Origin: a virus
Direction: 5' to 3' (one strand)
Virus record (IMG/VR): IMGVR_UViG_3300046000_005049
Location: 1 to 35,988 of that record
DNA: 35,988 nt
Shown: piece by piece, positions 696 through 32,468 of the stretch
How the letters are laid out: every line of letters begins with the position of its first letter
Position numbering within the stretch: the stretch's first letter is position 1
Notes under the pieces: generated by a model
The model's input: the letters and a program-made list of their open reading frames with translations, nothing else
Database searches by the model: none
What the model was told of the DNA's origin: nothing
Position numbers and translations under genes: made by a program

Positions 696-871
696 AACTC
701 ATTCAATTAACTTATCTTGACGATACAGAAGTTTTTCTAAACCCAATGCATATTGTCGCCGTAGATACAAGTGATAGGGGCGTAACCCAGGTACTAGTTA
801 TTGGAACCGCTGATGTAATCCATGTAAAGGAACTGCCTCAGCGTGTCGCCCTTTTAGTTGAAGAAGATTAG
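692..871 (+). CDS. Very small protein with an FlbD-like pattern
   Basis: A 59-residue ORF whose ATG (692-694) overlaps the preceding TGA (693-695) as ATGA, typical of translational coupling here. It begins MKLIQLTYLDDTEVFLNP and continues MHIVAVDT, which resembles the short all-beta FlbD-like proteins (I-x-L-T-x-L-x-G-x-x-x-x-x-N-x-x-x-I) that are also common in phages. It ends three bases before the ligA promoter. Function unknown; the FlbD resemblance concerns fold only and is tentative. Confidence 0.6.
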   Translation: MKLIQLTYLDDTEVFLNPMHIVAVDTSDRGVTQVLVIGTADVIHVKELPQRVALLVEED

Positions 872-902
872 ACTTGCGGCACTTGCTAAAATTTGATATA
901 AT
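872..902 (+). promoter_or_regulatory. Promoter of ligA with repeated ACTTGC half-sites
   Basis: TTGCGG 874-879, a 17-base spacer and TATAAT 897-902. ACTTGC occurs at 872-877 and again at 881-886, exactly nine bases apart in direct orientation. The -10 box ends seven bases before the ligA ATG, so transcription should start at or within a base or two of the start codon. Confidence 0.75.
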
Positions 903-909
903 ATAGACT

Positions 910-1860
910 ATGAAAAACATTAAAGACTACCTAGACGCAGCAAGTGCCGACTATTACGCAGGCCGCCCTACAATCTCTGACGAGGTGTTTGATAGGCTCG
1001 CGGAGGCTGCTGATTATCAGGCAGTCGGTGCTAAACAACATGACCATCTTAAAAAGCATTTTCGTCAAATGTTCTCTCTTCAAAAATACTATGAAGATGA
1101 AGGTGTTGCCCCTTTACAAGGGTACAATACTACTTGCACACCGAAGCTTGACGGAGCCGCTATTAGTCTTTTGTATATTGATGGACAGCTTACTCACGCT
1201 ATTACCCGAGGCGATGGGGTGGAAGGTACGGACATTACTGATAAGATGTATGCCCGAAAAGACCTAGTTCCACTCAATGTTACCCGCATGGGAGTTTTCC
1301 AAGTGATTGGAGAAGTAGTAGCCCCTAAAACAATTGAGAATGCTCGTAACTACGCAGCAGGTGCACTAAATCTAAAGGATTTGGAACAATTTCGTACTAG
1401 GGCTATTAGCTTCTTTGCTTACGGTGTGTATCCTTATGCTAACGATAAGTTCTCAGCAGACATGCAGGAGCTAACATCATATGGATTTGACACAGTTTAC
1501 GCTAACGACATTCATAATATTTACCCTTGTGACGGCCTCGTTTTTAGGGTTGATAGCAATGATGGCTTTGATACGCTCGGTTATACAGCGAAACACCCGC
1601 GTGGCGCATACGCGAAAAAGGATCGCGCAGAGGCAGTCGAAACCCAAATCATCGGCGTCGAGTGGAACGTCGGAAAGACGGGGAAGGTCACTCCGGTAGC
1701 TATTCTAGCCCCTGTAAAGATTGGTGACGCTTTAGTAAGCCGTGCTACATTAAATAATCCTGGGTTCATCCAGATGTTGGATTTACACATTGGTGACACT
1801 GTAGGCGTGATACGAGCAGGAGAAATCATACCTTGCATTACTCATAAGGTTGACGCTTAA
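910..1860 (+). CDS. ligA: NAD-dependent DNA ligase, N-terminal subunit (Ia, adenylation and OB domains)
   Basis: A 316-residue protein covering the first half of a bacterial LigA. Residues about 5-40 form the NAD-recognising Ia domain (DYYAGRPTISDEVFDRL). The adenylation domain has the catalytic lysine in TPKLDGAA (K79), with RGDGVEGTDIT at 100-110. The last 80 residues form an OB fold (GKVTPVAILAPVKIG, then GDTVGVIRAGEIIP). It lacks the zinc finger, HhH and BRCT domains, which are encoded by the next gene. Phage T5 has the same two-subunit layout. No ribosome site is visible because the promoter abuts the ATG, so the mRNA is probably leaderless. Bases roughly 1585-1690, at the start of the OB domain, are noticeably more GC-rich than the rest of the gene. 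Confidence 0.93.
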   Translation: MKNIKDYLDAASADYYAGRPTISDEVFDRLAEAADYQAVGAKQHDHLKKHFRQMFSLQKYYEDEGVAPLQGYNTTCTPKLDGAAISLLYIDGQLTHAITRGDGVEGTDITDKMYARKDLVPLNVTRMGVFQVIGEVVAPKTIENARNYAAGALNLKDLEQFRTRAISFFAYGVYPYANDKFSADMQELTSYGFDTVYANDIHNIYPCDGLVFRVDSNDGFDTLGYTAKHPRGAYAKKDRAEAVETQIIGVEWNVGKTGKVTPVAILAPVKIGDALVSRATLNNPGFIQMLDLHIGDTVGVIRAGEIIPCITHKVDA

Positions 1861-1892
1861 AATTCCTTTGGGTAAGCATTAAAAAAATACAC

Positions 1893-1921
1893 TTGCCAAG
1901 CCTTCCTAAATGAGTTATAAT
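1893..1921 (+). promoter_or_regulatory. Promoter of ligB
   Basis: TTGCCA 1893-1898, a 17-base spacer and TATAAT 1916-1921, in the 87-base gap between the two ligase genes. The -35 lies within ACTTGC (1891-1896), the element shared with the ligA and 11533 promoters. Confidence 0.72.
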
Positions 1922-1947
1922 AACTACATCAAGACAAAAAAGTAATT

Positions 1948-2697
1948 ATGAAGATTGAAATTCCGACAACATGCCCTTGCTGCGAGTACCCACTGGAACT
2001 GGTCAAGGATCAGTTGTTCTGTCGGAATACCGCATGTAGTGCACAGTTACTAAAAAAGGTTGAGAACTTTGCAAAAGTATTGGGTATAAAAGGTTTAGGG
2101 CCTAAAGCAGTAGAGAAGTTAAATCTAAATGATTTAGTGGAACTATTCTACCTCGATATTGATTCTATTTGCTGCGACTTAGGTACGGCAGTAGGCACAA
2201 AGATTTTCAATGAAATTCAACGAGCAAAAGGAGCGTCATTAGAAACCGTGATCGCCGCTTTCTCTATCCCTTTAGTAGGGGGAACGGCTGCAAAGAAAAT
2301 AGCGACAGTTGTATCCGATATTCGTGAAATTACTCAAGAAACTTGCCAAAGAGCAGGTCTAGGTGCAAAGGTAACAGAGAACCTATTGAACTGGGTTACT
2401 ACAGATTACCAAGAGATGAAAGAATTTCTGCCATTCGACTTTAAGAGTGGCAACAAAGTTACAGTAAACGTAGACGCAAAAAAGGTTTGCATTACAGGTA
2501 AATTAAAGTCCTACAAAAAGAAATCCGATGCTGAGGGGGCGCTCACAGCGGCAGGGTTCACATTAGTAGACTCAGTAACTAAAACTACTGATTATCTAGT
2601 TGATGAAGAAGGCAAAGGGTCTAGTAAACGCGATAAGGCCGAATCATACGGCATTACAATTATAACCGATCTTAATGACCTATTACAGGCTAAATGA
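1948..2697 (+). CDS. ligB: NAD-dependent DNA ligase, C-terminal subunit (zinc finger, HhH, BRCT)
   Basis: A 249-residue protein that supplies the domains missing from ligA. A four-cysteine zinc finger uses C9, C12, C25 and C30 (CxxC-x12-C-x4-C). Helix-hairpin-helix repeats follow (VLGIKGLGPKAVEKL at about 44-58, then FSIPLVGGTAAKKI and AGLGAKVTENLL). A BRCT domain fills residues about 175-249 (KKVCITGKL, AAGFTLVDSVTKTTDYLV). Together the two subunits would rebuild a LigA-type enzyme that seals nicks using NAD+. The split lies exactly at the OB/zinc-finger boundary, and each subunit has its own promoter, so this is a true two-gene arrangement rather than a frameshift. The ribosome site is weak. 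Confidence 0.92.
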   Translation: MKIEIPTTCPCCEYPLELVKDQLFCRNTACSAQLLKKVENFAKVLGIKGLGPKAVEKLNLNDLVELFYLDIDSICCDLGTAVGTKIFNEIQRAKGASLETVIAAFSIPLVGGTAAKKIATVVSDIREITQETCQRAGLGAKVTENLLNWVTTDYQEMKEFLPFDFKSGNKVTVNVDAKKVCITGKLKSYKKKSDAEGALTAAGFTLVDSVTKTTDYLVDEEGKGSSKRDKAESYGITIITDLNDLLQAK

Positions 2698-2719
2698 TCT
2701 AAACAGAAAGAAAAACATA

Positions 2720-3466
2720 ATGAGCGAAATTAAGAACAAGAAATGGTCCGACGAATCTGTTGCCACCCTTCTATCAATCGTAGGTGACACCAGTCCCGTG
2801 ACCGTGGCTTTGGTCGAACAAGCTGCCTCAGCACTAGAAGTATCTGTGCGTTCCGTTGCTGCAAAGCTACGCCAGCTTGACAGGGAAGTTGTTTCTATGG
2901 CTAAGGCTAAAGAGGCTACATTCTCGGACGACGAAGGTGCTGAGTTGACAGCCTTTGTTGAAGATAACGCTGGTGCCTTTACATACAAGGACATTTCGGA
3001 AAAGTTTGCGGGTGGTAAGTTTACTGCTAAGCAAGTGCAAGGTAAGATTCTGGCTCTAGAACTGACTGGTAGCGTTAAGGCTGCTGAGAAGGTGGAAGTT
3101 GCTCGTACTTATAGCGATGTGGAAGAAGCCACTTTCGTGACTATGGCTCAAGCCGGTAAGTTCATCGAAGAAATTGCAGCTACCCTTAGTAAGAGCATCT
3201 CTAGCGTACGTGGCAAGGCTCTGAGCCTGGTGCGTAAGGAACAAATCGACAAGATCCCTGCACAAAAAGAAAGCCATGCAAAGAACGTGGTTGACGGTGT
3301 GGCAGCTTTGGGTGCAGCAGTTGCAACCATGACAGTAGCAGAAATTGCTAAGGCTGTGGATAAGACAGAACGTGGTCTGAAGACCCTTCTGACTCGCCGG
3401 GGTATCAAGGTAGCTGACTATGACGGCGCTGCTAAGAAAGCAAAAGCAGAAGCAAAAGCTGCTTAA
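2720..3466 (+). CDS. Abundant basic DNA-binding protein with four helix-turn-helix repeats (T5 D5-like)
   Basis: A 248-residue protein rich in Ala, Lys and Val, starting at ATG 2720 (MSEIKNKKWSDESVA). Four related helical units can be seen: WSDESVATLLSIV ending in VRSVAAKLRQL; TFSDDEGAELTAFV ending in AKQVQGKILAL; TYSDVEEATFVTMA ending in SSVRGKALSLV; and a shorter MTVAEIAKAVDKTERGLKTLL. The first three begin with a Myb/SANT-like aromatic-S-D-E motif. It ends in a basic tail (AAKKAKAEAKAA). In T5 the D5 gene, in a comparable position, encodes a DNA-binding regulator of early and late transcription; homology is inferred from composition and context. Codon use (CGT, CTG, GCT) differs from its neighbours and a terminator follows, which suggests high expression. 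Confidence 0.72.
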   Translation: MSEIKNKKWSDESVATLLSIVGDTSPVTVALVEQAASALEVSVRSVAAKLRQLDREVVSMAKAKEATFSDDEGAELTAFVEDNAGAFTYKDISEKFAGGKFTAKQVQGKILALELTGSVKAAEKVEVARTYSDVEEATFVTMAQAGKFIEEIAATLSKSISSVRGKALSLVRKEQIDKIPAQKESHAKNVVDGVAALGAAVATMTVAEIAKAVDKTERGLKTLLTRRGIKVADYDGAAKKAKAEAKAA

Positions 3467-3492
3467 TTCTAACCTAACAGGTTAATTTAATA

Positions 3493-3530
3493 AGGCCGGG
3501 AGTTTTAATCAGCTCTCCGGCCTATTTCGC
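3493..3530 (+). terminator. Terminator after the D5-like gene
   Basis: GC-rich stem AGGCCGGGAG 3493-3502 pairing with CTCTCCGGCCT 3513-3523 (one bulge), loop of ten bases, then ATTTCGCTTT. The T tract is imperfect, so termination may be partial. Confidence 0.6.
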
Positions 3531-3542
3531 TTTAAGGTTAAA

Positions 3543-3842
3543 ATGGAAGTAACAATTAAATATACGGACGAGCATTCTCTCACAGTAGAAGAAGTAGTAG
3601 CTCAAGCGACCCATAACTACGGCAAAAATGTAACTGTAGAGATCATGCCAGATTCGACTAAAGCGTACGATCTAATCTATTTTGGGTTACAGCAAATCGT
3701 AACTCACCGTCAACTTAGTATGCTATTTGATGATAAAATAGGGTACCAACCAAAGCTAAAAAGCCTTAGATCAGAGGTCCTTTTTAAAGTACAAGAAATC
3801 CTAGACCAGGTTTTAGTAGATAACGAGAGTAAGGTTACATAA
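3543..3842 (+). CDS. Hypothetical protein
   Basis: A 99-residue acidic protein, start ATG with AAGG seven bases upstream. No recognised domain; a predicted beta beginning (MEVTIKYTDEHSLTVEEVV) and helical second half. It lies between the D5-like gene's terminator and the homing endonuclease gene, and its stop (TAA 3840-3842) overlaps the next ATG by one base, so the endonuclease is translated by coupling to it. Function unknown. Confidence 0.65.
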   Translation: MEVTIKYTDEHSLTVEEVVAQATHNYGKNVTVEIMPDSTKAYDLIYFGLQQIVTHRQLSMLFDDKIGYQPKLKSLRSEVLFKVQEILDQVLVDNESKVT

Positions 3843-4537
3843 TGACATGCGGTATATATTTGCTAAAATTTGAGGGTACTGATAAGGTTTATGTAGGTCA
3901 GTCTATTAATATAGAACAGAGATACGCTATACATAAGCAAAGATTTAAATCTGCTAATACTTCTAAAAAGCTGGTAGAGGCTTATAGCCTGTATGGGGAA
4001 CCCTCATTGGAGATTTTATGTGAGTGTGATGAAAAAGACTTAAATGTAAATGAAAATGAAGCTATAGAAATATTTAATGCAGTAATCTACGGATTTAACA
4101 CTAATGCAGAGGCAGATACTTGTCCTATTTTTTATGGAGAAGAGCATGGAAGATCTGTCTACTCCAACGATAAAATAGAAGAAGTATTTGAGATACTAGT
4201 TAGTAGATTCGATCTTAAGCACGCGGAGATATCCGCATTAACGGGGGTGCCTATAAGTAGGATATCTAGTATTTCACGGGGAGACACACATTCTTGGTTA
4301 AAATTAAAACACCCAGAAAAATGGGGGGTACTACAGAATCGTCCTAAATATCATAATTCGGGTGGGGACAGAGGTAAGGTATTTCCCCCTATACGTAGTC
4401 CAGAAGGCCAAGATTATACTATTACTAATATAACTCATTTCGCTCAAGAACATGGTTTAGGTCAAAGCAACTTAAGTGCTGTGCTAAGTGGCAAAAGAAA
4501 ACAACATAAGGGCTGGAAACTAGCCAAAGAAAGTTAG
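3842..4537 (+). CDS. GIY-YIG homing endonuclease (first of three paralogues)
   Basis: A 231-residue free-standing homing endonuclease. The N-terminal GIY-YIG nuclease domain shows GIY at 4-6, YVGQS at 17-21, R27 and a conserved Glu near 71. A central helix-turn-helix segment follows (VPISRISSISRG), then a C-terminal NUMOD-like DNA-binding module (SPEGQDYTITNI, then LSGKRKQHKGWKL). Two further genes in this window (20605 and 22078) have the same length and architecture and the same MTCGIY start. Such genes cut intron- or gene-free alleles and spread by repair; this one sits in the replication operon just before the helicase, joined by TAATG overlap to the upstream gene. The cleavage target is not visible; the adjacent helicase or upstream gene in related phages is the natural guess. 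Confidence 0.9.
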   Translation: MTCGIYLLKFEGTDKVYVGQSINIEQRYAIHKQRFKSANTSKKLVEAYSLYGEPSLEILCECDEKDLNVNENEAIEIFNAVIYGFNTNAEADTCPIFYGEEHGRSVYSNDKIEEVFEILVSRFDLKHAEISALTGVPISRISSISRGDTHSWLKLKHPEKWGVLQNRPKYHNSGGDRGKVFPPIRSPEGQDYTITNITHFAQEHGLGQSNLSAVLSGKRKQHKGWKLAKES

Positions 4538-4538
4538 T

Positions 4539-5939
4539 ATGGATATTTCCGCCATTCTTATTAATAAGTTACTATCAGAAAAGAACCTTGATATTTGGGC
4601 TAAGCTTAAGCTCGCTTTTCTCGATCCTAGCTATAGTAGCCTATACACACATATAAATCGATATTATACACATTATAGTAGTATACCTAGTTTTGACGAA
4701 TTAGAGGTTACAGTTAGAGAGCTTCCGGTTGCGAAGACTCTAGCTACCTTACGATTACTTGATGAAACAGACGTAACCGCAGAGGTAGCTCTAGACGCGT
4801 TAATAGACCAGTATACACAAAACCAATGCATTCTCTTATTAGACAAGTTTATTGACAAACTACCTATTTACGATAGTTCCGAAATTAAAGAAAGCCTTGC
4901 GTCTATAGTATTGACTCTAGACGAAAAAACCCTTTCTGCCGAAAACGTATTCACGATGGCAGAAGTTAATGTATTCCAACGACCAGAAGAACTTGCACGT
5001 ACTCGTATGCACTTAGGACTAAATAACACATTCGATTCCGTATTGAACGGCGTTGCTAGACAGGAGCTTATCCTTATCGGAGGAAAGCGTGGCTCTGGTA
5101 AATCTATTATTAGTAGTAATATTCTTTGCTCACAGTATGAAGCTGGCTTAAGCTCTGTGTACTTCACAATCGAAATGATTGCACATGAAGTACTACAGCG
5201 GAATATTTCTATTCTAGCTAACGTAGACCACAGGGCGTTGAAGAAAAACGAGCTGACAGACGGCGACTTACTGAAGGTAGTTAAGTGCCGTGCCGAAATG
5301 TTTACGAACGCTGATAAGTATGTTCAAGAGTTTGTACAGGATAGAGATCAGTACAAGTTCGAAGATAGTATTAATCGCTACTGTGAGCTAAAGCCAGATA
5401 ACCAGATGGTTATTGTAGACGACCGTAAGCTGTCTCTTAGCAGTATTGATCTTCACTTAGGTAAGATGAAAGCTAAGTTTGGTGAAAAGTTCGGGGTAGC
5501 TGTTATCGACTACTTGAACCAGATTGTCATTGAAGGCGCTAAATCACAGTTTGATTGGCAACCGCAGGTTGACGTATCTAAGAAACTGAAAGAGTTAGCG
5601 CGCAAGTATGACATCGTGATTATTTCGCCATATCAAATTGACGCAACTGGTGAGGCTAGGTTTGCTAAAGGTATTCTGGACGCGGCAGATATTGCTATGA
5701 CCCTAGAGCCACACAACGAAGATAGTGCTATCTCTATGGAAACTACAAAAATCCGTGGTGATAAGGCTATGAAGTTTACCAGTGGCATGAATTGGGATAC
5801 TCTACGTATTAGCCCAATCCCTATTGATAAGCCAGCAAGTAAAGAAAAACCTAAAGATAAAATTCCACGAGCAGGTAAAAAAGATGAAGCAAAACCAACT
5901 GGAGAATCTGCTGCTGAAGTCCTTCCTTGGGAGGATTAA
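4539..5939 (+). CDS. DnaB-type replicative helicase
   Basis: A 466-residue RecA-fold hexameric helicase. Walker A is GGKRGSGKS at 181-189, the catalytic Glu region is FTIEM at 209-213, Walker B is AVIDYLNQ at 321-328 and a sensor Gln lies in SPYQID (Q366). A C-terminal ISMETTKIRGDK matches the DnaB H4-type segment. The N-terminal 160 residues are helical, as in DnaB-family primase-binding domains. After residue 430 comes a Lys/Pro-rich, apparently disordered tail that ends with acidic/hydrophobic EVLPWED. The enzyme unwinds the fork ahead of the polymerase. Its stop overlaps the primase ATG (TTAATG), so the two are made together. It starts two bases after the GIY-YIG stop. Confidence 0.88.
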   Translation: MDISAILINKLLSEKNLDIWAKLKLAFLDPSYSSLYTHINRYYTHYSSIPSFDELEVTVRELPVAKTLATLRLLDETDVTAEVALDALIDQYTQNQCILLLDKFIDKLPIYDSSEIKESLASIVLTLDEKTLSAENVFTMAEVNVFQRPEELARTRMHLGLNNTFDSVLNGVARQELILIGGKRGSGKSIISSNILCSQYEAGLSSVYFTIEMIAHEVLQRNISILANVDHRALKKNELTDGDLLKVVKCRAEMFTNADKYVQEFVQDRDQYKFEDSINRYCELKPDNQMVIVDDRKLSLSSIDLHLGKMKAKFGEKFGVAVIDYLNQIVIEGAKSQFDWQPQVDVSKKLKELARKYDIVIISPYQIDATGEARFAKGILDAADIAMTLEPHNEDSAISMETTKIRGDKAMKFTSGMNWDTLRISPIPIDKPASKEKPKDKIPRAGKKDEAKPTGESAAEVLPWED

Positions 5940-6790
5940 TGAGTGATCCAGTAGCAGACCTATTAAAAGAACATAATGTATACTACATACCTTCTGGTAG
6001 AGACTACCTTACAAAGTGTTTCAACCCGGAGCACAACGACTCAAACCCTTCCTTCCGTATTGACAAAAGTACCGGAATTGCCCACTGTTTCTCATGTGGT
6101 TTCAAAACCAACATATTCAAATTCTACGGCGTCCTTACCAACAACGTCAGTATCAAAATCGTAAAGCTAAAAGACAAATTGAAAGCGTTGACAGAATCAG
6201 TGAGTGGCTTGGAACCTATCAAAGGCGCTAAGCCTTTCCCTACTAAGTTCCGGGGTATTAGCTTAGCTACCTTAAAGTATTTTGAAGCATTCCATACTAC
6301 TTTAGACCCTGAACTGGAAGATAGACTAGTTATACCAGTTAAAGATATTAGGGATAAGGTTACAGCCTATGTAGGTAGGCATGTATTATCTGATGGTAAC
6401 CCTAGGTATCTTATCCGCCCTGCGCACGCTACCGTGGGTATGTATCCGGCCAAACTGCCAGACCATCCTAGGAATATTATTCTAGTAGAAGGTATGTTTG
6501 ACCTACTAAATATGTGGGACAAAGGCGCTAGGAATGTTGTGTGTACATTTGGTACATCGAAATTGTATAATGACACAGCAGATAAGATGCTCCCGTATAA
6601 GGTTATGGGAGTAGAGAAAGTATTTATACTTTACGATGGTGACGACGCAGGTAGAACTGCCGCCACCAAGATCAAACCATTAATTGAAGAATGCGGTTTT
6701 ACAGTGGAAGTAATTAATTTACCTGACGGAGACGACCCAGGTGACTTAGACCACGAGTATGTAGAATCTATAATTGAATATACAAGATGA
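5939..6790 (+). CDS. DNA primase (CHC2 zinc finger and TOPRIM)
   Basis: A 283-residue DnaG-type primase. The start at ATG 5939 is fixed by GGGAGGA at 5929-5935; a TTG twelve bases earlier lies in that ribosome site. The zinc-binding residues are C27, H32, C50 and C53 (CFNPEH, then HCFSCG). The TOPRIM core has E184 in ILVEGMFD and the DxD motif in ILYDGDDAGR (233-235). It is shorter than bacterial DnaG and lacks the helicase-binding C-terminal domain, like other phage primases. It makes RNA primers for the downstream polymerase and presumably works with the helicase encoded directly upstream. Confidence 0.92.
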   Translation: MSDPVADLLKEHNVYYIPSGRDYLTKCFNPEHNDSNPSFRIDKSTGIAHCFSCGFKTNIFKFYGVLTNNVSIKIVKLKDKLKALTESVSGLEPIKGAKPFPTKFRGISLATLKYFEAFHTTLDPELEDRLVIPVKDIRDKVTAYVGRHVLSDGNPRYLIRPAHATVGMYPAKLPDHPRNIILVEGMFDLLNMWDKGARNVVCTFGTSKLYNDTADKMLPYKVMGVEKVFILYDGDDAGRTAATKIKPLIEECGFTVEVINLPDGDDPGDLDHEYVESIIEYTR

Positions 6791-7041
6791 ATATAACTGA
6801 ACGAATAGCTAAGCAAAGAGCGAAGATAGCTAAAGCGATAGCTAAAATAGAATCTATTAGAGAAGAATGTGATCATATAGGTGTACATGTAAAATATGAT
6901 GCCGATACAGGTAATTACTGTAAACAAGACGACTCTTACTGGATTTACTGGCGCTGCCCGATCTGCGATAAATACTGGACAACCGACCAAGACAGAGAAG
7001 CAGGTTACAAGGTTAGAGAACTAAAAGCAGTTAAAATATGA
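6787..7041 (+). CDS. Small coiled-coil zinc-ribbon protein
   Basis: An 84-residue protein whose ATG overlaps the primase stop (ATGA). The first 25 residues are a Lys/Ala/Glu helix (AKQRAKIAKAIAKIESI). Then come CDHIGVH and, 25 residues later, CPICDKYW, giving a plausible C-x-H/C-x-x-C zinc site. The gene at 12663 has the same plan without obvious sequence identity. It lies between primase and polymerase, overlapping both, so a replication-linked role is possible but unproven. Confidence 0.75.
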   Translation: MNITERIAKQRAKIAKAIAKIESIREECDHIGVHVKYDADTGNYCKQDDSYWIYWRCPICDKYWTTDQDREAGYKVRELKAVKI

Positions 7042-9335
7042 AAATTTGCGTAATTGACAAAGCCCCAAATAAGAATAGATACTCAGATTATTTCAAGTTT
7101 GAGTTTGAGCACTTTCACATGAGTCAAGTGCCTATTACAAAACTACTAAAGAAGGACGTTACTTTAGATATTGATCTAGAGTGCTACGATTACGTTATTT
7201 TAGTAGGATCCGAAGCTGCAAAAGAATACGCGAAGGTCACGTCCGTGACCGACTTCGCGGGGCAGTTGGTTCATGATAAGTTTATTCCTATCAGTAACCC
7301 TGCCATGTTGCATTTTAAGCCGGAGGGCAAACCTGCCTTCCAACGAGCTTGTGACCGTATCCACAAGTATTTAAGTGGAGAAGTTACGAATGCAGCAAAG
7401 ACTGGCGACTTTAAAGGAATCTTGGACATTGATGAAGCCCGAGAGTATTTGTTGGAGGTGCTCGAGAATGCACAAGGCTACGTTGCATTCGACACTGAAA
7501 CCACATGTCTGTACCCACGAGACGGTTACGTTCTCGGAGTCTCCATCTCTTATAAAGCCGGACACGGACGATACATCTCTACCGATGCCCTTGATGAAGA
7601 AAATCTTAGACTTCTTCAAAAGATAGCAGATACGTTTTACATCATATTTCATAACTTGAAGTTCGACTATAAGATGATGGCGTATCACCTTGGCATTACG
7701 TTTAATCGCGCCAAAGTTCATGATACAATGGTAATGCATTACGTGCTAGATGAAAACGACGGCCATGGTTTAAAAGCTCTAGCGTTAAAGTACACCTCGT
7801 ATGGTGATTATGACTCAGAGCTGGACGCATTCAAGAAGTCTTTTTGTGCGTCCAATGGAATCAAGGTAGAAGATTTCACTTACGAATTTATCCCCTTCGA
7901 CATTATCAGTGAATATGCTGCTATAGACACCGCAGTAACATATGAACTATTTATTAAGTTCTGGCCTGTAGTGCAGAAAAATGATAGGCTTCTATGGGTT
8001 TACCAGAATCTACTGATTAACGGTACCTTATTCCTAATGGACATGGAAGAAGTTGGAATTCCGATTGATAAGGTCAGGATGGCTCAAGCAGAGGAATATC
8101 TAGATAAGTGGATAGCCGAAGCTAAGCAAGAGATTTATACTTTTGAAGAAGTAAAGCTATTTGAAAAGGACCAAGGTGGAATATTCAATCCCAACTCAGT
8201 ACAACAACTACGTAAAGTACTATTCGACTACGTGGGCCTGCAGCATACAGGAAAAAAGACAGCAACAGGAGCAATCTCAACAGATGCTGAAGTACTTGAA
8301 GAGCTATCAGAACTTCATGCCCTCCCTGCTGCCATCCTTAAAGTTAGACAACTAGGAAAGATGAAGAATACTTACATTAGTAAGATTTTACCAGAATTGG
8401 ACAAAGATGAACGCATTAGGACTAACTTTAATCTTATTTTTACTACTTCTGGCCGTCTTAGCAGCAGTGGTAAGTTTAATGCTCAGCAAATCCCCCGCGA
8501 TGACCCAATCATCAAAGCCTGTATCAGATCGCCAAACGGCTACAAAATCGTTTCGCAAGACTTAGCAACTGCTGAGATGTTTTATGCTGCGGTACTAAGT
8601 GGTGATAAAAACTTACAACAAGTATTTGCTTTAGGCGGAGATTTTCACTCAACAATTGCAAAAATGGTATTCGATCTTACGTGCGAAGTAGAAGACGTAA
8701 AAAAGCTGTTTCCTTCCTTACGCCAGAGTGCGAAGGCAATCAGCTTCGGGATTTTATACGGTTCAGGACCCCAAAAAGTTTCTGATACGGTTAGTAAGGC
8801 AACAGGTGAATATTATGGGCTCGACCGAGCAAAAGATGACATTAAAACGTACTTTACTAAATTCAGTAAGCTTAAGGGATGGCTCAAAGCTAGAGAAACT
8901 TTTATCCGTGCTAACGGATTTACTTATTCTTTCTTTGGTCGTAAGCGTCGTCTTGTTAACGTCTTCTCTGATGACAAAGGTATTGCCGCACATGAAGTTA
9001 GGAGCGGAATTAACTCTGAGGTTCAGTCAATTGCTTCCGACGTAAACCTTTTAGCAGCTATGGATACAGCTAACGAAGTAGCTGCAAAGAGTCTTGACGC
9101 TAAAATCTTCATGCTAGTACACGACTCAATCGTAGCACTGGTTAAAGATGAAGATGTGGAAGCATACTGTGAGATTGTTAAACGCAATACACAAAAAGAT
9201 AGAGGTTGTAGTATCCCAGGATTTCCTATTGGTGTTGACCAAGAAATTGGGCAAGACTACTCATTTGGAAAGTTTGAGAAAACATATGAACTTATCGGAA
9301 ATTCGCTGGCCCGTATACCTTCTGAGAAAAAATGA
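7038..9335 (+). CDS. DNA polymerase, family A, with 3'-5' exonuclease
   Basis: A 765-residue replicative polymerase. The exonuclease motifs are FDTET (D152, E154), FHNLKFD (H205-D210) and YAAIDTAVTY (Y293, D297). Polymerase motif A is SQDLATAE (D508, E513), motif B is RQSAKAISFGILYG (R562, K566, F570, Y574) and motif C is LVHDS (D696), where most family members have HDE. The N-terminal 140 residues precede the exonuclease domain and contain no catalytic motif; T5 polymerase likewise has extra terminal sequence. F570 is the position that governs dideoxynucleotide discrimination. The ATG overlaps the previous stop (ATGA). The next gene appears to start inside its last 50 bases. A GC-rich hairpin is embedded at 7229-7259. 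Confidence 0.94.
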   Translation: MKICVIDKAPNKNRYSDYFKFEFEHFHMSQVPITKLLKKDVTLDIDLECYDYVILVGSEAAKEYAKVTSVTDFAGQLVHDKFIPISNPAMLHFKPEGKPAFQRACDRIHKYLSGEVTNAAKTGDFKGILDIDEAREYLLEVLENAQGYVAFDTETTCLYPRDGYVLGVSISYKAGHGRYISTDALDEENLRLLQKIADTFYIIFHNLKFDYKMMAYHLGITFNRAKVHDTMVMHYVLDENDGHGLKALALKYTSYGDYDSELDAFKKSFCASNGIKVEDFTYEFIPFDIISEYAAIDTAVTYELFIKFWPVVQKNDRLLWVYQNLLINGTLFLMDMEEVGIPIDKVRMAQAEEYLDKWIAEAKQEIYTFEEVKLFEKDQGGIFNPNSVQQLRKVLFDYVGLQHTGKKTATGAISTDAEVLEELSELHALPAAILKVRQLGKMKNTYISKILPELDKDERIRTNFNLIFTTSGRLSSSGKFNAQQIPRDDPIIKACIRSPNGYKIVSQDLATAEMFYAAVLSGDKNLQQVFALGGDFHSTIAKMVFDLTCEVEDVKKLFPSLRQSAKAISFGILYGSGPQKVSDTVSKATGEYYGLDRAKDDIKTYFTKFSKLKGWLKARETFIRANGFTYSFFGRKRRLVNVFSDDKGIAAHEVRSGINSEVQSIASDVNLLAAMDTANEVAAKSLDAKIFMLVHDSIVALVKDEDVEAYCEIVKRNTQKDRGCSIPGFPIGVDQEIGQDYSFGKFEKTYELIGNSLARIPSEKK
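7229..7259 (+). repeat. GC-rich imperfect hairpin inside the polymerase gene
   Basis: CGCGAAG (7229-7235) pairs with CTTCGCG (7253-7259), and inside it GTCAC (7236-7240) pairs with GTGAC (7245-7249). The loop is GTCC and there is a three-base bulge on one side. It lies in codons 64-74, before the exonuclease domain, in otherwise AT-rich sequence. Function unknown. Confidence 0.6.
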
Positions 9336-9828
9336 TAAACCCATTAGTAAAGGTGGAATGACCTATTACTTAACAGAGGGTTATACAGAAGATGAAGAAG
9401 GTGAGATTGTTACCACTACAAAGCTTCGACTAATAGATGATACGGAGTTACCTGGAGATTCTTTAGCTTTACGTAGACTTCAGATAAAGGCACTTGATGT
9501 GCCATTATTTCCTCTGCGTAAAGCGCTGTTCTTCTTAGGCGATTTGATAAAAGTAGCCGTACCTTCTCAATGGCTTATCGACAGTAATGGCAAGGTATTC
9601 AATTATGCTAAGCAGCGTAGAGTACCTCTTAGAAGCTACCCAATAACAGGCGTATTTGATATTGGAGGTGGGGGTGCTATTATTGAAATTGACTATGCAC
9701 AGAGATTTAAAGTGCTACATAAACCTAAACATACAATGAAATACGCAGGTGTACTCACCCTAGGTCTAGAGAAGATTCTTTACGGTCTATACGAGGAACC
9801 CTTTGACGAAACATGGAGATTAATATGA
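9286..9828 (+). CDS. Hypothetical protein downstream of the polymerase
   Basis: A 180-residue protein if it starts at ATG 9286 (MNLSEIRWPVYLLR), overlapping the polymerase end by 50 bases. The frame is open further upstream to 9148, but that would overlap conserved polymerase sequence by nearly 190 bases, so the internal start is preferred. The ribosome site is weak. The sequence is mostly beta-like, with a GGGGAIIEIDYAQR segment and no catalytic motif that I recognise. It sits between polymerase and the D10-like helicase in a chain of overlapping genes. Function unknown. Confidence 0.7.
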   Translation: MNLSEIRWPVYLLRKNDKPISKGGMTYYLTEGYTEDEEGEIVTTTKLRLIDDTELPGDSLALRRLQIKALDVPLFPLRKALFFLGDLIKVAVPSQWLIDSNGKVFNYAKQRRVPLRSYPITGVFDIGGGGAIIEIDYAQRFKVLHKPKHTMKYAGVLTLGLEKILYGLYEEPFDETWRLI

Positions 9829-10037
9829 ATGAAACAATTGAACATATTGTAATGCAGAGATACAAAGATATACACCGTAATAGGCAGTTTGCTTTTATGG
9901 AAGTAGAACGTCTTCAGGAAGATTTAGCTCGTGCTATCAAAGGGCTAAAAAATATTGATACGGTTCTAGATGCTATTCAAGTTGAGATGATGCCACCTAT
10001 CCCAAAGATGGGTACTATGATGCCGGGGATTATGTAA
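9825..10037 (+). CDS. Small helical protein of unknown function
   Basis: A 70-residue protein. ATG 9825 overlaps the preceding TGA (ATGA) and has GGAG at 9815-9818 with a six-base spacer; an ATG at 9813 is part of that ribosome site. The middle (residues 20-55) is a strongly charged helix, and the end is Met/Pro-rich (MMPPIPKMGTMMPGIM), which is unusual. No function assigned. Confidence 0.65.
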   Translation: MNETIEHIVMQRYKDIHRNRQFAFMEVERLQEDLARAIKGLKNIDTVLDAIQVEMMPPIPKMGTMMPGIM

Positions 10038-10210
10038 TGAACGACGAAACACGATACGTTCTAAATAGAGAACTTATTCGGTTAGATAAGCTCATTAAGG
10101 AAGCGGAACAAGACGCCAAGAGTTTAACTATAGATGTAGCCAAAAAATACGTCGATATTGCTTCATACCAGATCATGTATAAGCAAATCAAAGATGATTT
10201 AGATGCCTAA
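10037..10210 (+). CDS. Very small charged helical protein
   Basis: A 57-residue ORF found by reading the gap: its ATG (10037-10039) overlaps the previous TAA as TAATG, and its stop (10208-10210) lies eight bases inside the next gene. It is almost entirely helical and charged (RELIRLDKLIKEAEQDAK). The coupled position supports translation. Function unknown. Confidence 0.6.
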   Translation: MNDETRYVLNRELIRLDKLIKEAEQDAKSLTIDVAKKYVDIASYQIMYKQIKDDLDA

Positions 10211-11516
10211 AGCAATTATTTCTAACAGAATATACTTAGACACTACACCTGAGCTAACTAAAGTACTACAAAAAGCTTTAACATATAAAATACGAAAACC
10301 CCCACGACCTGGGCTAACACACTTTTCAATGTTTGATATAGTTAAAAGCTACAAAATGATTAGTAGTAAGGTTATCTCAATTCCTATCGGTAGAGGAGAT
10401 CTCATACCGGAGGATTATGAAGTAGTGGATAAGCGAATTAGCCATGATATGCCATTTCCAAACCCTAAGCACCCGCTTAGGCCTGGACAGCAGTTAGTGT
10501 ACGATGAAGTTGACGACAACTGCTTAATTAACGCAGCAGTTGGTTGGGGTAAGACATTTACCGCCTTACATATAGCTAGAAAGCTAGGACAGAAGACTCT
10601 GATAGTATGTCACAATACTATGATTAGAGATATGTGGAAGCAAGAAATTGAAGCGTTGTTTGGTATGGATGCAGGTATTATCGGTTCAGGTAAAATGGAC
10701 CACGACTACCCTATTACAGTAGGTAACATCCAGACCCTAACTAAAGTAGTTGGAGAGATTAGTAAAGAGTTCGGTTTAGTAATCGTTGACGAGTGTCACC
10801 ACGTATCTGCTAGTACATTCTCTACTTTTGTAGACGCTATGTACTGTAGGTACAAGATTGGACTATCTGGTACTATTACTAGAAAAGACGGTAAGCAGGT
10901 TATGTTTAAGGACTTCTTTAGTCCTAAACTGCTCCAGCCAGCCGAATCCGATACAATGACGCCTCGCGTAAGGATTATCAAGACCGGCGTTCACCTAGAC
11001 CCAGGGGCAACGTGGGCTGAGAAGCTTAATAAACTTCTATACGACCCTGAGTACCAGGGGTTTATTGCTAAAGTAGCGCAGATACAAATGGATAAGGGCT
11101 ATAAGGTACTTATCATTGCAGATCGAGTAGAGTTTCTAATTAACGTAGGAGAACTAATTGGTGAAAAATGTGTGTGTATTACTGGGGGGACTAGTTTTGA
11201 AGAGCGGGAAGGACTCAAAGCCCAAATCGAATCAGGCAAAAAAGATTGCGTGGCTGGAAGCCGTCAAATCTTTGCAGAAGGTATCTCCATCAACCCCCTT
11301 AGCTGCGTGATATTAGCTGGGCCGATTTCGGCCCCGGCTTACGCTGATGGGTTAATTGATCAGATCATCGGACGTATTAGACGTCTGTTTCCTGGTAAGC
11401 TCCAGCCTTTAGTACTCGATATGAATTTTGCAGATTCGGGTAGTAGGAAACAGAACAAGGAAAGACTCGACTTTTACAAGCGTAAGGGTTGGGACATTGT
11501 AGAACACGATGTGTAG
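10203..11516 (+). CDS. SF2 DNA helicase (T5 D10-like)
   Basis: A 437-residue helicase. Walker A is AAVGWGKTFTA (111-121), motif Ia follows, motif II is VDECHH (195-200), motif III is LSGTITRKDG (221-230), and motif VI is QIIGRIRRLFPGK. The second RecA domain contains KVLIIADRVEFL and CITGGT. This layout matches the phage UvsW/D10 class, which migrates branched DNA and helps resolve recombination or stalled-fork structures. The position after the polymerase matches T5 D10. It ends the polymerase operon; a promoter and dyad follow within 50 bases. Confidence 0.9.
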   Translation: MPKAIISNRIYLDTTPELTKVLQKALTYKIRKPPRPGLTHFSMFDIVKSYKMISSKVISIPIGRGDLIPEDYEVVDKRISHDMPFPNPKHPLRPGQQLVYDEVDDNCLINAAVGWGKTFTALHIARKLGQKTLIVCHNTMIRDMWKQEIEALFGMDAGIIGSGKMDHDYPITVGNIQTLTKVVGEISKEFGLVIVDECHHVSASTFSTFVDAMYCRYKIGLSGTITRKDGKQVMFKDFFSPKLLQPAESDTMTPRVRIIKTGVHLDPGATWAEKLNKLLYDPEYQGFIAKVAQIQMDKGYKVLIIADRVEFLINVGELIGEKCVCITGGTSFEEREGLKAQIESGKKDCVAGSRQIFAEGISINPLSCVILAGPISAPAYADGLIDQIIGRIRRLFPGKLQPLVLDMNFADSGSRKQNKERLDFYKRKGWDIVEHDV

Positions 11517-11526
11517 CATCTAAAAT

Positions 11527-11549
11527 TTGAACTTGCACAGCAAGTTCAA
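11527..11549. promoter_or_regulatory. Perfect 10-bp dyad over the -35 box (putative operator)
   Basis: TTGAACTTGC (11527-11536), three bases ACA, then the exact reverse complement GCAAGTTCAA (11540-11549). It covers the -35 hexamer and part of the spacer of the 11533 promoter. No T run follows, so it is not a good terminator. The half-site contains ACTTGC, also present at the ligA and ligB promoters. Confidence 0.7.
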
Positions 11550-11561
11550 TCGTGTTATAAT
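11533..11561 (+). promoter_or_regulatory. Promoter of the 11582-12616 unit
   Basis: TTGCAC 11533-11538, 17-base spacer, TATAAT 11556-11561. The start codon at 11582 has AAGGCGG upstream, so this transcript has an ordinary leader. The unit ends at the 12624 terminator. Confidence 0.78.
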
Positions 11562-11581: not shown

Positions 11582-11962
11582 ATGGCACTATTTTTCAACT
11601 TAAAAACCTTAGAGGAGCAGTCATGTAATGATACCAAAAAATTCCTTAACATGCTCTACTATCATTGGAATAAATCTGCACCATTAACCAAATACAATAT
11701 AAATCTGCGCTCTAAAGTTTCCTTAGCAGGCACATCTTATTTACTTAACCCCGGCGATTTCTTCGCTGATAAGTCTACAGATGATCTCTTTAGAGTACAG
11801 TACATAAAATTGGCAGGTAGACGGGACTGGAACTTATATAAACAGTATAAGTACAGAGCCTTGAACACTAGCTTTTTCCCTGATCTAATATACGATTCAA
11901 TTAAACATAATCCGTTATTAGTAATTACAAACAAAGAAATTAAATTCAAATACGAAGGATAA
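11582..11962 (+). CDS. Hypothetical protein co-transcribed with the ssDNA-binding protein
   Basis: A 126-residue, aromatic- and Lys-rich protein with ribosome site AAGGCGG before its ATG. No cysteine cluster, membrane segment or known catalytic motif. It is the first gene after an apparently regulated promoter and ends three bases before the next gene, so the two are expressed together. Function unknown. Confidence 0.7.
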   Translation: MALFFNLKTLEEQSCNDTKKFLNMLYYHWNKSAPLTKYNINLRSKVSLAGTSYLLNPGDFFADKSTDDLFRVQYIKLAGRRDWNLYKQYKYRALNTSFFPDLIYDSIKHNPLLVITNKEIKFKYEG

Positions 11963-11965: not shown

Positions 11966-12616
11966 ATGGCATTAGCATTCGGCACAGCAAAAGGCAAAGC
12001 AGCAAAAAATTCGCACCCTGCATACGCTTACAAAGATGGTGAAAACACAGTACGTCTAATCGGCGGCATTCTGCCGCGTTACGTCTACTGGTTAAAAGGT
12101 ACAAACAACAAAGATATTCCAGTGGAGTGCCTTGCGTTTGATCGTCAGCTAGAAAAGTTCAATAACTTGGAAGTTGACCATGTTCCTGAGTACTTCCCTA
12201 AGGTTAAGTGCGGTTGGTCTTATTCAATGAACTGTATTGCTACAGTTGAGGGTAAGCCCCAGGTTGTGGTACTTAATCTGAAGAAGAAGTTGTTTGAACA
12301 AATTAGTTCTGCAGCTGAAGACCTTGGAGACCCCACCGACCCCGATAACGGCTGGGACGTGGTATTCAAGCGTGCTAAGACAGGTCCTCTGCCTTTCAAC
12401 GTTGAGTACACTCTATCTGTTCTGCGTTGCAAGAAGCGCGCTCTGACAGACGAAGAAAAAGAACTCGTTGGTTCCGCACTTAGTATTGACGAGAAGTTCA
12501 TACGTCAAACTCCTACAGAGATTAAAGCTCTGCTAGAGAAGATCACTAAAGGTCAGCCCGAAGAAGATGCTGCTGACAGCGGTGTTGACGGTGAAGCGGT
12601 CAACGAACTTGGGTAA
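11966..12616 (+). CDS. Putative single-stranded DNA-binding protein
   Basis: A 216-residue protein with AAGGA before its ATG. A basic beginning (FGTAKGKAAKNSHPAYAYKD), then beta-rich sequence with VRLIGGILPRYVYWL and KVKCGWSYSMNC, and an acidic C-terminal tail (EEDAADSGVDGEAVNELG). Basic/aromatic OB-like core plus acidic tail, its own promoter and terminator, and a position between D10-like helicase and SbcD/SbcC genes all fit a phage SSB that coats replication intermediates. Its frequent CTG/CGT codons and own terminator suggest strong expression, as needed for a stoichiometric protein. The assignment is by architecture and context; I cannot name the exact family. Confidence 0.55.
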   Translation: MALAFGTAKGKAAKNSHPAYAYKDGENTVRLIGGILPRYVYWLKGTNNKDIPVECLAFDRQLEKFNNLEVDHVPEYFPKVKCGWSYSMNCIATVEGKPQVVVLNLKKKLFEQISSAAEDLGDPTDPDNGWDVVFKRAKTGPLPFNVEYTLSVLRCKKRALTDEEKELVGSALSIDEKFIRQTPTEIKALLEKITKGQPEEDAADSGVDGEAVNELG

Positions 12617-16333: not shown

Positions 16334-16782
16334 TTGATAGTCGTGCTAAAGGTGCTAGAGCAGAAACCCTAATTAGAGACAGCCTTCGTGTACACACGAA
16401 ACTTAATTGGGAGAGGGTACCTAGCTCAGGTGCCCTTGACCCTAAACATGGGCTAAAGGGCGACCTTTACGTCCCAAACGAAAAGAACCTTTTCTGTGTA
16501 GAAGTTAAACACTATGCAGACGATCACCTTACTAGTAAAATACTGACAGACAGGAATCCGCAACTTATTGAGTGGTGGAAACAAGCATTACGTCAAGGTA
16601 TACAAGTGGAAAAAATCCCCTTGCTTGTGTTTAAGTTTGACCGTAGTAAAATCTTTTGCGCCTTCGCGGACCTACCAACAGGACTATATGATTCTATCTC
16701 AATCGGCGCTAAAGATCACTTCTTTACAGTAGCATTGTTAGATGACTTTATGGTGCATGAGCGACCAAAATTTATCGCTTGA
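16327..16782 (+). CDS. PD-(D/E)xK nuclease, Holliday-junction-resolvase-like (T5 D14 position)
   Basis: A 151-residue protein with a good AAGGAG site before ATG 16327. It starts SRAKGARAETLIRDSL (helix with the usual early Glu). Then come WERVPSSGALDP, KGDLYVP (active-site Asp) and FCVEVKHY (the ExK motif). This is the order seen in archaeal Hjc and phage PD-(D/E)xK resolvase-type nucleases, which cut branched DNA. It lies between the SbcC and flap nuclease genes, matching T5 D14. Substrate not provable from sequence. Confidence 0.75.
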   Translation: MVVDSRAKGARAETLIRDSLRVHTKLNWERVPSSGALDPKHGLKGDLYVPNEKNLFCVEVKHYADDHLTSKILTDRNPQLIEWWKQALRQGIQVEKIPLLVFKFDRSKIFCAFADLPTGLYDSISIGAKDHFFTVALLDDFMVHERPKFIA

Positions 16783-16807
16783 TTACTTATTTAAAATATA
16801 GTATAAT
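16779..16807 (+). promoter_or_regulatory. Promoter of the flap endonuclease-dUTPase-nrdJ unit
   Basis: TTGATT 16779-16784, 17-base spacer, TATAAT 16802-16807. The spacer is AT-rich. The first in-frame ATG (16814) begins six bases after the -10 box, so its mRNA would have no leader. Confidence 0.7.
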
Positions 16808-16813: not shown

Positions 16814-17665
16814 ATGACCGCAAAAACATTTAAACAAATAAACACAATGCAAGAAGGCAATCTTATGATTGTCGACTCGCTAAACCTAGCTTTCCGCTAT
16901 AAACACGCTAAGGCAGTTGACTTCTGTACAGACTATATGCGTACAGTAGAAAGCCTACGTAAGTCATATAAGTGCGATAAGCTAATAATTGCTGGAGATA
17001 TGGGCTCCTCTTCCTACCGTAAGGCTCTGTACCCTGAGTATAAACAGAACCGGAAAGATAAATTTGCAGATCAGACACCTGAAGAAAAAGCAGAGTTTGA
17101 AGAGTTCTTTGGCGAAGTCCAACGAATCCTTGAACAATATGAGTCCGATGGAGTTTCTCCGGTTCTTAGGTTTCCCGGAGTTGAGGCTGACGATATCGCA
17201 GCGTACATCGTCTCAAAACGAAAACGCTTCCAATGTTCCCAAATCTGGCTAATTTCATCAGATAGAGACTGGTCACTTTTGGTAGACACCAACGTAAGCC
17301 AGTTTAGTTACGTTACTAGAAAAGAATTTACTGTGGAGAACTGGCATGAGCATTATGAGTGGGATCGTGATAGCTATATTAGTATTAAGTGCCTCATGGG
17401 CGACCCTGGAGATAATGTACCTGGCGTGCCCGGAATTGGCCCAAAGAAAGCTGCTAGTTTGGTGGAAGAATACGGATCTACCTACGATATCATTGCCTCT
17501 CTACCCATTAGTAGTAAGTATAAATATATTGCTAATCTTAATGCTTTTGGTGCTGATGCTCTAATGCTAAACTATAAGCTAATGGACCTAGTAACCTTCT
17601 GCGAGGATGCTATTGGTAAAGAGAATTGCAAGAAGATTGATGAAGTATTGGGGTTATATCTATGA
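16814..17665 (+). CDS. 5'-3' flap endonuclease/exonuclease (T5 D15-like)
   Basis: A 283-residue FEN-family nuclease that removes primers and flaps. Recognisable elements in order: LMIVDSLNLAFRYKH; GDMGSSSYRKALYPEYKQNR (helical arch entrance); PGVEADDIAAYI (metal site); WLISSDRDW (second metal site); LMGDPGDNVPGVPGIGPKKA (H3TH with GDxxDN). Layout and length match T5 D15. The start is uncertain. ATG 16814 would be leaderless. ATG 16847 begins MQEGNLMIVD. ATG 16865 (MIVDSLN) has AGAAGG with a seven-base spacer. T5 D15 also has an extension before the MIVDG motif, so I keep the longest form. Confidence 0.92.
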   Translation: MTAKTFKQINTMQEGNLMIVDSLNLAFRYKHAKAVDFCTDYMRTVESLRKSYKCDKLIIAGDMGSSSYRKALYPEYKQNRKDKFADQTPEEKAEFEEFFGEVQRILEQYESDGVSPVLRFPGVEADDIAAYIVSKRKRFQCSQIWLISSDRDWSLLVDTNVSQFSYVTRKEFTVENWHEHYEWDRDSYISIKCLMGDPGDNVPGVPGIGPKKAASLVEEYGSTYDIIASLPISSKYKYIANLNAFGADALMLNYKLMDLVTFCEDAIGKENCKKIDEVLGLYL

Positions 17666-20480: not shown

Positions 20481-20518
20481 AAAAAAGCCCGCTTAGAGCA
20501 ATCTAAGCGGGCTTTTTT
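20481..20518 (+). terminator. Strong intrinsic terminator
   Basis: A 17-base perfect stem, AAAAAAGCCCGCTTAGA (20481-20497) with its complement at 20502-20518 ending in six T, and a GCAA loop. The A-run on the left arm lets it work in both directions. Confidence 0.93.
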
Positions 20519-20541: not shown

Positions 20542-20570
20542 TTGACTTTCTCTAGGGATAGTGATATAAT
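20542..20570 (+). promoter_or_regulatory. Promoter of the second GIY-YIG gene
   Basis: TTGACT 20542-20547, 17-base spacer, TATAAT 20565-20570, followed by alternating AT. It sits directly after a strong terminator, so this endonuclease is an independent transcription unit. Confidence 0.82.
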
Positions 20571-20604
20571 ATATATATATGACAGAAAAATAATTGGAGA
20601 CGTT

Positions 20605-21300
20605 ATGACATGTGGTATATATAAATTAAATTTCAAAGGTACAGATAAGGTATACATAGGTCAATCTATGGGTATAGAAACTAGATATAAAGCGCATTTG
20701 GACACCTTCAGTAGCAAAAAACATACGGCTAAGCTAATGGAGGCGTATAATTTATACTCGTATCCTGATCTAGAAATTTTACTAGAATGCGACAGGGGGG
20801 AACTAGACGAACTGGAACACTTAGCTATAGAAGGATTTAACTCAGTGGTAGAAGGGTTTAATACTACTTCTAAAATTTGTGGAGGCATTTCGCCCGGAGA
20901 ATTAAATGGTAATTCAAAATTCAGTAATTCTCAAATTATAGAAGTATTTAACATGTTAATCTATTCTAGTAACTATTCCTATAGAGGTATCAGTAGTATA
21001 ACAGGTGTATCTATAGATACTATAAAGCAAATAGTTAGGGGTAAGAATCATACTTGGTTATCGGAGTACAATACTATAGGGTATCAAAAAATGCTACAAG
21101 CTAAGGGCTCTAAAGCTAGTTTCTCCAACTCACTGGAAGGTATTGGTAGAGTCCATCCTGATATTATTTCTCCAGAAGGTAGAGCCTATACAATTACCAA
21201 TATTAAAAGCTTTGCTGAAGAACACAATTTAACCCCTTCCAATTTAGGCTGTGTTCTACGAGGGTCTAGGAAGTCGCATAAAGGGTGGAGGTTGGCATAA
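20605..21300 (+). CDS. GIY-YIG homing endonuclease (second paralogue)
   Basis: A 231-residue enzyme starting at ATG 20605, preceded by TTGGAGA; a longer frame reading through the promoter is not expressed. GIY at 4-6, YIGQS at 18-21 region, Arg in ETRYKAH, conserved Glu in ELDELEH. Central helix-turn-helix (VSIDTIKQIVRG) and C-terminal NUMOD-like module (SPEGRAYTITNI, then RGSRKSHKGWRL). Close in plan to the genes at 3842 and 22078. It is flanked by two terminators and has its own promoter, so it looks like a self-contained mobile cassette placed at the junction between the early and late arms. Confidence 0.9.
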   Translation: MTCGIYKLNFKGTDKVYIGQSMGIETRYKAHLDTFSSKKHTAKLMEAYNLYSYPDLEILLECDRGELDELEHLAIEGFNSVVEGFNTTSKICGGISPGELNGNSKFSNSQIIEVFNMLIYSSNYSYRGISSITGVSIDTIKQIVRGKNHTWLSEYNTIGYQKMLQAKGSKASFSNSLEGIGRVHPDIISPEGRAYTITNIKSFAEEHNLTPSNLGCVLRGSRKSHKGWRLA

Positions 21301-21338
21301 ATAAAGCCACTAAACGTACTACGTTTAGTGGCTTTATT
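21300..21338. terminator. Bidirectional terminator between converging units
   Basis: AATAAAGCCACTAAACGTA (21300-21318) and its exact complement (21320-21338) around a single C, so in RNA a stem with a small loop. The flanking TTTATT on both strands suits termination of both the plus-strand endonuclease and the minus-strand phoH. It overlaps the endonuclease stop. Confidence 0.88.
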
Positions 21339-22077: not shown

Positions 22078-22776
22078 TTACCCTTTATGTAATCGCCATT
22101 TCTTATGTGATAAGCGAGAACCAGATATAACCCTCCCTATATTAATAGGGTCTAAATTATACTCTTTACAAAAATTACTAATCGTATTGCCTACTTCTAT
22201 AATATCTCCATTTGGACTAATTAAACTAACTGTATTACTATTTGAAAATTTACCCATAGATTGGGTTCTTCTACTACTCATATATTTAGTATACTCTACA
22301 GGGTATTTAGAGTATAAAGACCTAACATGTGATTTCCCTCTAGATATATCCGTTACGGTATCCTCAGTAACATCACACTCTACGGCAATAGTTTTAATTG
22401 AAAAGGTACTATTTACTAGCATATGAAATATCTTTTCGTATGTTTCATTACTATATCTAGCTAATACATTATCTGAACCTAGTACTCCGCCACTATTAGC
22501 TTTATTTGAAATATTTAAACCATGAGAAGAAGCTTTAAATATTTCAAAAGCTTCTTCTTCATACTTATTTAGATCTTCATAAGTACATTCACATAGTATT
22601 TCAAGAGTAGGCTCCCCGTATTTAAGATACGCATTATATACTTTATAGTTACTTTTACCGTTATTACTTTTTAAGTTTCTGAGATGCTCTTTATACCTAT
22701 CTTCAATATGTATACTTTGACCTATATAATATTTATCTAGCCCTTTAAAAATTAATCTGTAAATTCCGCAGGTCAT
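22078..22776 (-). CDS. GIY-YIG homing endonuclease (third paralogue)
   Basis: A 232-residue enzyme of the same plan as those at 3842 and 20605. GIY at 4-6, YYIGQS at 16-21, Arg in IEDRYKEH, a conserved Glu in LNKYEEEAFEIF, a helix-turn-helix segment (VTEDTVTDISRG) and a C-terminal SPNGDIIEVGN/SGSRLSHKKWRL module. It is more AT-rich in wobble positions than its neighbours. Located directly upstream of phoH, with its own near-consensus promoter, so phoH expression probably depends partly on it. Nearest likely target: phoH alleles lacking the insertion. Confidence 0.9.
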   Translation of the reverse strand: MTCGIYRLIFKGLDKYYIGQSIHIEDRYKEHLRNLKSNNGKSNYKVYNAYLKYGEPTLEILCECTYEDLNKYEEEAFEIFKASSHGLNISNKANSGGVLGSDNVLARYSNETYEKIFHMLVNSTFSIKTIAVECDVTEDTVTDISRGKSHVRSLYSKYPVEYTKYMSSRRTQSMGKFSNSNTVSLISPNGDIIEVGNTISNFCKEYNLDPINIGRVISGSRLSHKKWRLHKG

Positions 22777-32398: not shown

Positions 32399-32434
32399 TG
32401 TTTCTACCTTCCTGAAAGTATACTCATAATCTCT

Positions 32435-32463: not shown

Positions 32464-32468
32464 GGGGC

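Follow-up and report, generated by a model that had tools for sequence, protein, structure and literature searches.

The ACTTG promoters of an uncultured T5-like phage lineage as a probable variant of T5 early promoters

Introduction

Promoters of T5-like phages have a published consensus, described for phage AKFV33, which consists of TTGCTw at -35, a spacer of 17-18 bp and TATAATA, together with AAAAATT upstream of position -43 and a TAAATT motif at +1, and promoters of this consensus were termed host-read (PMC3326045). For T5 itself, a further study states that all three temporal classes are transcribed by the host sigma-70 polymerase, that the discriminator is the main difference between early and late promoters and that the mechanism of transcription class switching is unknown (PMC7472727). 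The elements of sigma-70 promoters, including the UP element and the extended -10, have been reviewed elsewhere (PMC2613000).

Here we describe the promoters of a single viral record, a contig of 35,988 bases analysed over its whole length (the window), alongside a comparison set of 80 related viral contigs. A near-identity search of the phage collection found no near-identical record. The contig comes from a T5-like phage; its DNA polymerase (PolA) shares 49% identity with the enzyme of Salmonella and Escherichia phages of the T5-like group, and its genes include ligA, ligB, a D5-like gene, a DnaB-like helicase, a primase, a second helicase, ssb, SbcD, SbcC and the DNA polymerase. The genes most relevant here, all on the plus strand, are those of the NAD-dependent DNA ligase subunits ligA (910-1860, phrog_3359) and ligB (1948-2697, phrog_3498) and the ssb operon, made up of the ORFs 11582-11962 and 11966-12616, the latter encoding the single-strand DNA-binding protein (phrog_1607).

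Results

A preliminary description of the window had reported ACTTGC-N19-TATAAT before these three transcription units, at 872-902, 1891-1921 and 11531-11561, with the TTGC of ACTTGC opening each -35 box and exactly 17 bases leading to a perfect TATAAT, and all of these coordinates proved correct. The ligA promoter (858-902, plus strand) has an A/T-rich upstream part, AC, TTGCGG (874-879), the 17-bp spacer and TATAAT (897-902). The ligB promoter (1870-1921, plus strand) has the A-tract TTAAAAAAATAC followed by AC, TTGCCA (1893-1898) and, after the same spacer, TATAAT (1916-1921), while that of the ssb operon (11519-11561, plus strand) has CTAAAATTTG, AC, TTGCAC (11533-11538), a 17-bp spacer containing TGT and TATAAT (11556-11561). 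About 0.1 matches to ACTTGC-N19-TATAAT would be expected in the window by chance, against the 3 present. With the spacing relaxed to N15 to N22 there are 4 matches versus 0.13 expected, a number reached in 0 of 100 shuffles, and the fourth of them (32100-32131, minus strand, spacer 18), which lies within the ORF 31931-32470, is probably due to chance.

Two plus-strand promoters can be added to those listed in the preliminary description, namely a further TTGC-type promoter without AC, TTGCGG-N17-TATAAT at 157-185, which precedes a PC4-like gene (206-487), and TTGATT-N17-TATAAT at 16779-16807, which precedes the 5'-3' exonuclease gene (16814-17665). Two late-type promoters lie on the minus strand, CCTTGACT-N17-TATAAT at 32435-32463, on the same strand as the structural genes, and TCTTGACT-N17-TATAAT at 31494-31522, which precedes a tail gene (30840-31427). 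As a separate observation, the gene at 206-487, upstream of ligA, encodes a PC4-like single-strand DNA-binding coactivator (PF02229), and T5_ev212 has near its ligA a gene annotated as a ssDNA-binding transcriptional regulator. We also observed that CGGCACTTGCT at 877-887 recurs in exact reverse-complement form 51 bases further downstream, at 939-949, within the start of ligA.

The preliminary description had named a scan of relatives as a check, and we searched each gene for TTGn3-N17-TATAAT in a region reaching from 130 bases upstream of the ORF to 60 bases within it. Promoters recur before ligA (48 of 53 loci, of the ACTTG type in 44), ligB (56 of 57, ACTTG type in 52) and the first gene of the ssb operon (78 of 80, ACTTG type in 76). 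The 5'-3' exonuclease gene is preceded by one in 36 of 43 loci, with ACTTGA or ACTTGC in 27 of the 43, and polA in 34 of 80, with the ACTTG type in 27 of the 80. The same search found no TTGn3-N17-TATAAT upstream of D5, dnaB, primase, ssb, sbcD or sbcC in the loci of the relatives. The idea of an early promoter family with a common -35 is thus borne out, with identical genes and layout in the 80 relatives and in T5. The sixth letter of the proposed ACTTGC varies among lineage sites (138 ACTTGA, 108 ACTTGT and 47 ACTTGC), and the final C is outside the signal. At individual genes the fourth -35 base is specific: in the ssb operon all 76 ACTTG sites have C or T and ACTTGA never occurs, and at polA all 27 have A.

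A count that presupposed no -35 gave CTTG as the top four-letter signal at this exact distance from TATAAT, with 338 occurrences versus 7 expected, or 48 times over. The exact pattern ACTTG-N20-TATAAT occurs 7 to 17 times per record in the 8 larger relatives, and a backwards control gave 1 occurrence across all 8. A logo built from 120 non-redundant sites shows an upstream block from about -47 to -40 in which an A-tract passes into T, with A in 79-87% of sites at two positions, and then A (69%) and C (72%) ahead of TTG. At the fourth -35 position A, C and T all occur but G almost never, the fifth and sixth positions are weakly constrained, the spacer has an A/T-rich patch and then TG (TGn) ahead of the -10, and TATAAT is followed by A in 80% of sites. 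The heights of TTG and TATAAT in this logo are not evidence because both were fixed by the search; the CTTG count is. The conserved unit is therefore not ACTTGC but an entire sigma-70-type promoter, comprising the A/T tract, ACTTG, the 17-bp spacer, TGn and TATAATA, so that the lineage promoters include both a UP element and an extended -10. This anatomy, like the positional conservation, is directly observed. Compared with E. coli sigma-70 promoters that have a UP element and an extended -10 (PMC2613000), the lineage has all four elements at the correct spacing, but -35 positions 4-6 of the early class depart from ACA.

The closest likeness is to the early promoters of T5 and T5-like phages (Demerecviridae). 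Counterpart promoters precede ligA (or the operon that holds it), ligB and the ssb operon in T5_ev212, Yersinia phiR2-01, Proteus phage 1, Vibrio Javier and Vibrio 70E37-4, except that the same positional comparison found none at ligA or its operon in Vibrio 70E37-4; in Aeromonas Akh-2 no promoter with TATAAT was found at ligA and ligB. Most -35 boxes of these T5-like phages read TTGC and then T or A. Measured against the published consensus, the lineage matches in its A/T-rich block near -43, in its spacer, which is exactly 17 bp, in TATAATA and in the conserved position ahead of the same early and replication genes. The window sites (TTGCGG, TTGCCA and TTGCAC) carry the TTGC of TTGCTw but lack its Tw, whereas the lineage as a whole has ACTTG[ATC], strongly conserving AC before TTG while -35 bases 4-6 are relaxed. 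A second difference lies at +1, where the A/T-rich region (TAAATT) and the discriminator ATATT, clear in T5, are weak in the lineage logo. At position 45952 of one relative (L092) there is a site matching what we take to be the sequence of the strong T5 promoter PH207. That promoter is described as recognised by the host polymerase (PMC6127294).

Beyond these elements, the spelling of the -35 box tracks temporal class: early promoters have ACTTGn in this lineage or TTGC in T5-like phages, and late promoters have TTGA, mostly TTGAC. We delimited early and late regions manually, according to gene content, when the promoter lists had already been seen. Among promoters having an A/T-rich upstream part, ACTTG occurs in 22 of 33 early but 0 of 17 late promoters of the window and four large relatives, and TTGAC in 4 of 33 early but 15 of 17 late promoters. 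The corresponding count for TTGC in five T5-like phages is 30 of 42 early versus 0 of 9 late promoters. The P-values of these directly observed contrasts, about 1e-4 to 1e-7, overstate the evidence, since the regions were drawn afterwards and related phages are not independent. A late-gene search with the tail gene at 30840-31427 yielded six relatives, and TTGAC promoters lie near its counterpart in relatives; in three of the six (L118-L120) the late tail-gene promoter has AC ahead of TTG, which weakens the notion that AC is early-only. The -35 box thus separates the classes in addition to the discriminator, in an uncultured lineage as well as in T5-like phages infecting several hosts.

A third promoter class was seen outside the window, with TTGACA, mostly an 18-bp spacer, and TATAAT directly followed by TTTGGCGC. 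Its 18 distinct sites fall in four contigs (G001, G002, G003 and G005; for example L107:4684(+), L115:12410(-) and L100:15490(+)), and the -10 often lies within a palindrome, CCAAAATTATA-tgt-TATAATTTTGG, that looks like a repressor operator across the -10, possibly of pre-early genes.

The preliminary description had also pointed to second half-sites nine bases further on, a direct ACTTGC at 881-886 and an inverted GCAAGT at 11540-11545, and both are present. The inverted half-site sits at the core of a perfect 23-bp inverted repeat, TTGAACTTGC-ACA-GCAAGTTCAA at 11527-11549, which extends beyond that half-site, spans the -35 box and spacer and may be a local operator. One other relative (L106) has the same layout, TACTTGA-AAC-TCAAGTA. 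The palindrome is absent from the ssb-operon promoters of the nearest relatives (L006, L005 and L007), though a different palindrome, of shorter length, is present in L005. At the ligA promoter, neither L005 nor L007 has the direct repeat. The conserved pair of half-sites at fixed spacing expected of a dimeric regulator was not found in the relatives. As a null for repeats, each upstream half was paired with spacers from other promoters. Inverted repeats with arms of at least 7 number 5 versus 1.5 expected (0 of 500 shuffles), those with arms of at least 6 were equalled in 19 of 500 shuffles, and those with arms of at least 5 show no clear excess (107 of 500); because several arm thresholds were examined, the excess of long arms is only a hint. 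The five long-arm cases differ in centre and spacing, and an inverted-repeat operator was set aside as a general reading given this small excess, the unfixed geometry and the lack of conservation. Direct repeats at promoters show no excess over the null. In phage lambda, CII binds TTGC-N6-TTGC around the -35 region. The site at 872 likewise has TTGC twice across the -35 region, but at a spacing of 5 rather than 6 and in a direct repeat that is not conserved, and a CII-like reading was rejected as direct repeats are not in excess. ACTTGC itself is not enriched in the window (17 copies versus 14 to 21 expected). The preliminary description had proposed a sequence-specific phage or host regulator of early and replication genes. 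With half-sites unconserved in the nearest relatives, an unconserved sixth base and no enrichment, a dedicated ACTTGC-binding regulator is not supported, and none is needed to explain the three boxes.

The candidate regulator of that proposal was the D5-like DNA-binding protein encoded at 2720-3466 (plus strand, phrog_323). A structural model of it (mean pLDDT 73, pTM 0.36) consists of four three-helix units, a predicted chain of helix-turn-helix domains. The last unit of T5 D5 matches Sigma70_r4_2 with 28.8 bits, above the Pfam cut-off of 25.7, and the window protein reaches 22.4 bits, below it. A PDB sequence search using a D5 profile returned nothing significant, and Foldseek with the D5 model gave no match at E<=0.001. 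The D5-like protein may be a factor that acts on the early class, and its features offer a lead rather than a demonstration.

Discussion

Given that T5-like phages have promoters at the same places, that their published consensus is similar and that they are read by host sigma-70, we file the three sites under T5-type early promoters. They are very probably read directly by the host RNA polymerase with its main sigma factor, and we regard them as a lineage-specific variant of the known T5 early promoters with a -35 spelling of its own, ACTTG. Sigma use, contacts, strength and timing would follow T5 and general knowledge of sigma-70 promoters, and early kinetics and host reading in particular would be those described in PMC3326045 and PMC7472727. 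By this analogy, the alpha subunits would grip the A/T tract, sigma region 4 would read the -35 box (ACTTGn in this lineage and TTGCTw in T5), region 3 would read TGn and region 2 TATAATA, and the promoters would drive ligA, ligB and the ssb operon. The -35 core of the lineage would have shifted to A-C-T-T-G with the last three hexamer bases weakly constrained, and most likely the host polymerase binds unaided, with the UP and TGn contacts offsetting the weaker -35. What counts against such host reading is that the early -35 lacks the AC of the sigma-70-preferred TTGAC, which is present in other classes of the same phages, so that sigma preference alone fails to explain the early spelling. It is possible that the early class avoids TTGAC because this eases escape from already tight promoters, or that the spelling is the handle of a factor.

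Several other readings have to be weighed against T5-type early promoters. That A/T-rich DNA produced the three matches by coincidence is next to inconceivable; simple promoter scans do give no more matches than shuffles, but the specific pattern far exceeds its expectation in the window and its orthologous conservation in relatives already refutes chance. ACTTG might instead simply be the -35 consensus of the main sigma factor of the host, in keeping with its strong over-representation across the lineage. We consider this very improbable, as late promoters and the class with 18-bp spacers in the same phages use TTGAC[AT], which contradicts a host-sigma spelling. Local operators at 872 and 11531, serving a dimeric regulator through half-sites at a nine-base distance, would account for the perfect palindrome at 11527-11549, the same layout in L106 and the excess of long-armed inverted repeats, but centres and spacing vary over the five cases, the nearest relatives lack the palindrome, arms of at least 5 are not clearly in excess and direct repeats are not in excess, and we find this reading decidedly doubtful.

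A regulator of the class as a whole is also unlikely, although the early/late split in spelling speaks for it. Here a phage protein, likeliest the D5-like one, would bind the early -35 (ACTTG, or TTGC in T5) and turn the class down or up, the promoters themselves still being sigma-70 promoters. T4 middle promoters, which have a MotA box and lack a normal -35, offer a parallel in their class-specific bases near -35, but the promoters studied here retain TTG and the exact 17-bp spacing. The four predicted helix-turn-helix units of D5, the last resembling sigma region 4.2, fit such a role. Against it, the sigma-4.2 match is short and perhaps that of a generic helix-turn-helix, the structure search gave no match at its threshold, the late tail-gene promoter of L118-L120 likewise has AC before TTG, and PMC7472727 links the switch partly to gpT5.026 and the discriminator. 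A bolder form, to which we give only a slim chance, is that the -35 encodes class throughout T5-family phages and that a D5-type protein with a sigma-region-4-like reading head recognises the early spelling and shuts those promoters at the onset of late transcription.

Apart from the promoters, the window encodes three mutually similar proteins with MTCGIY... (3842-4537, 20542-21300 and 22078-22776) that, judging from the motif, are probably GIY-YIG-type homing endonucleases. Most relatives lack them, and the second and third lie close to the early/late border. Long perfect inverted repeats of terminator-like appearance are found at 20481-20518, 21300-21338, 31528-31561 and 32473-32499, the last two directly upstream of the two late promoters of the window.
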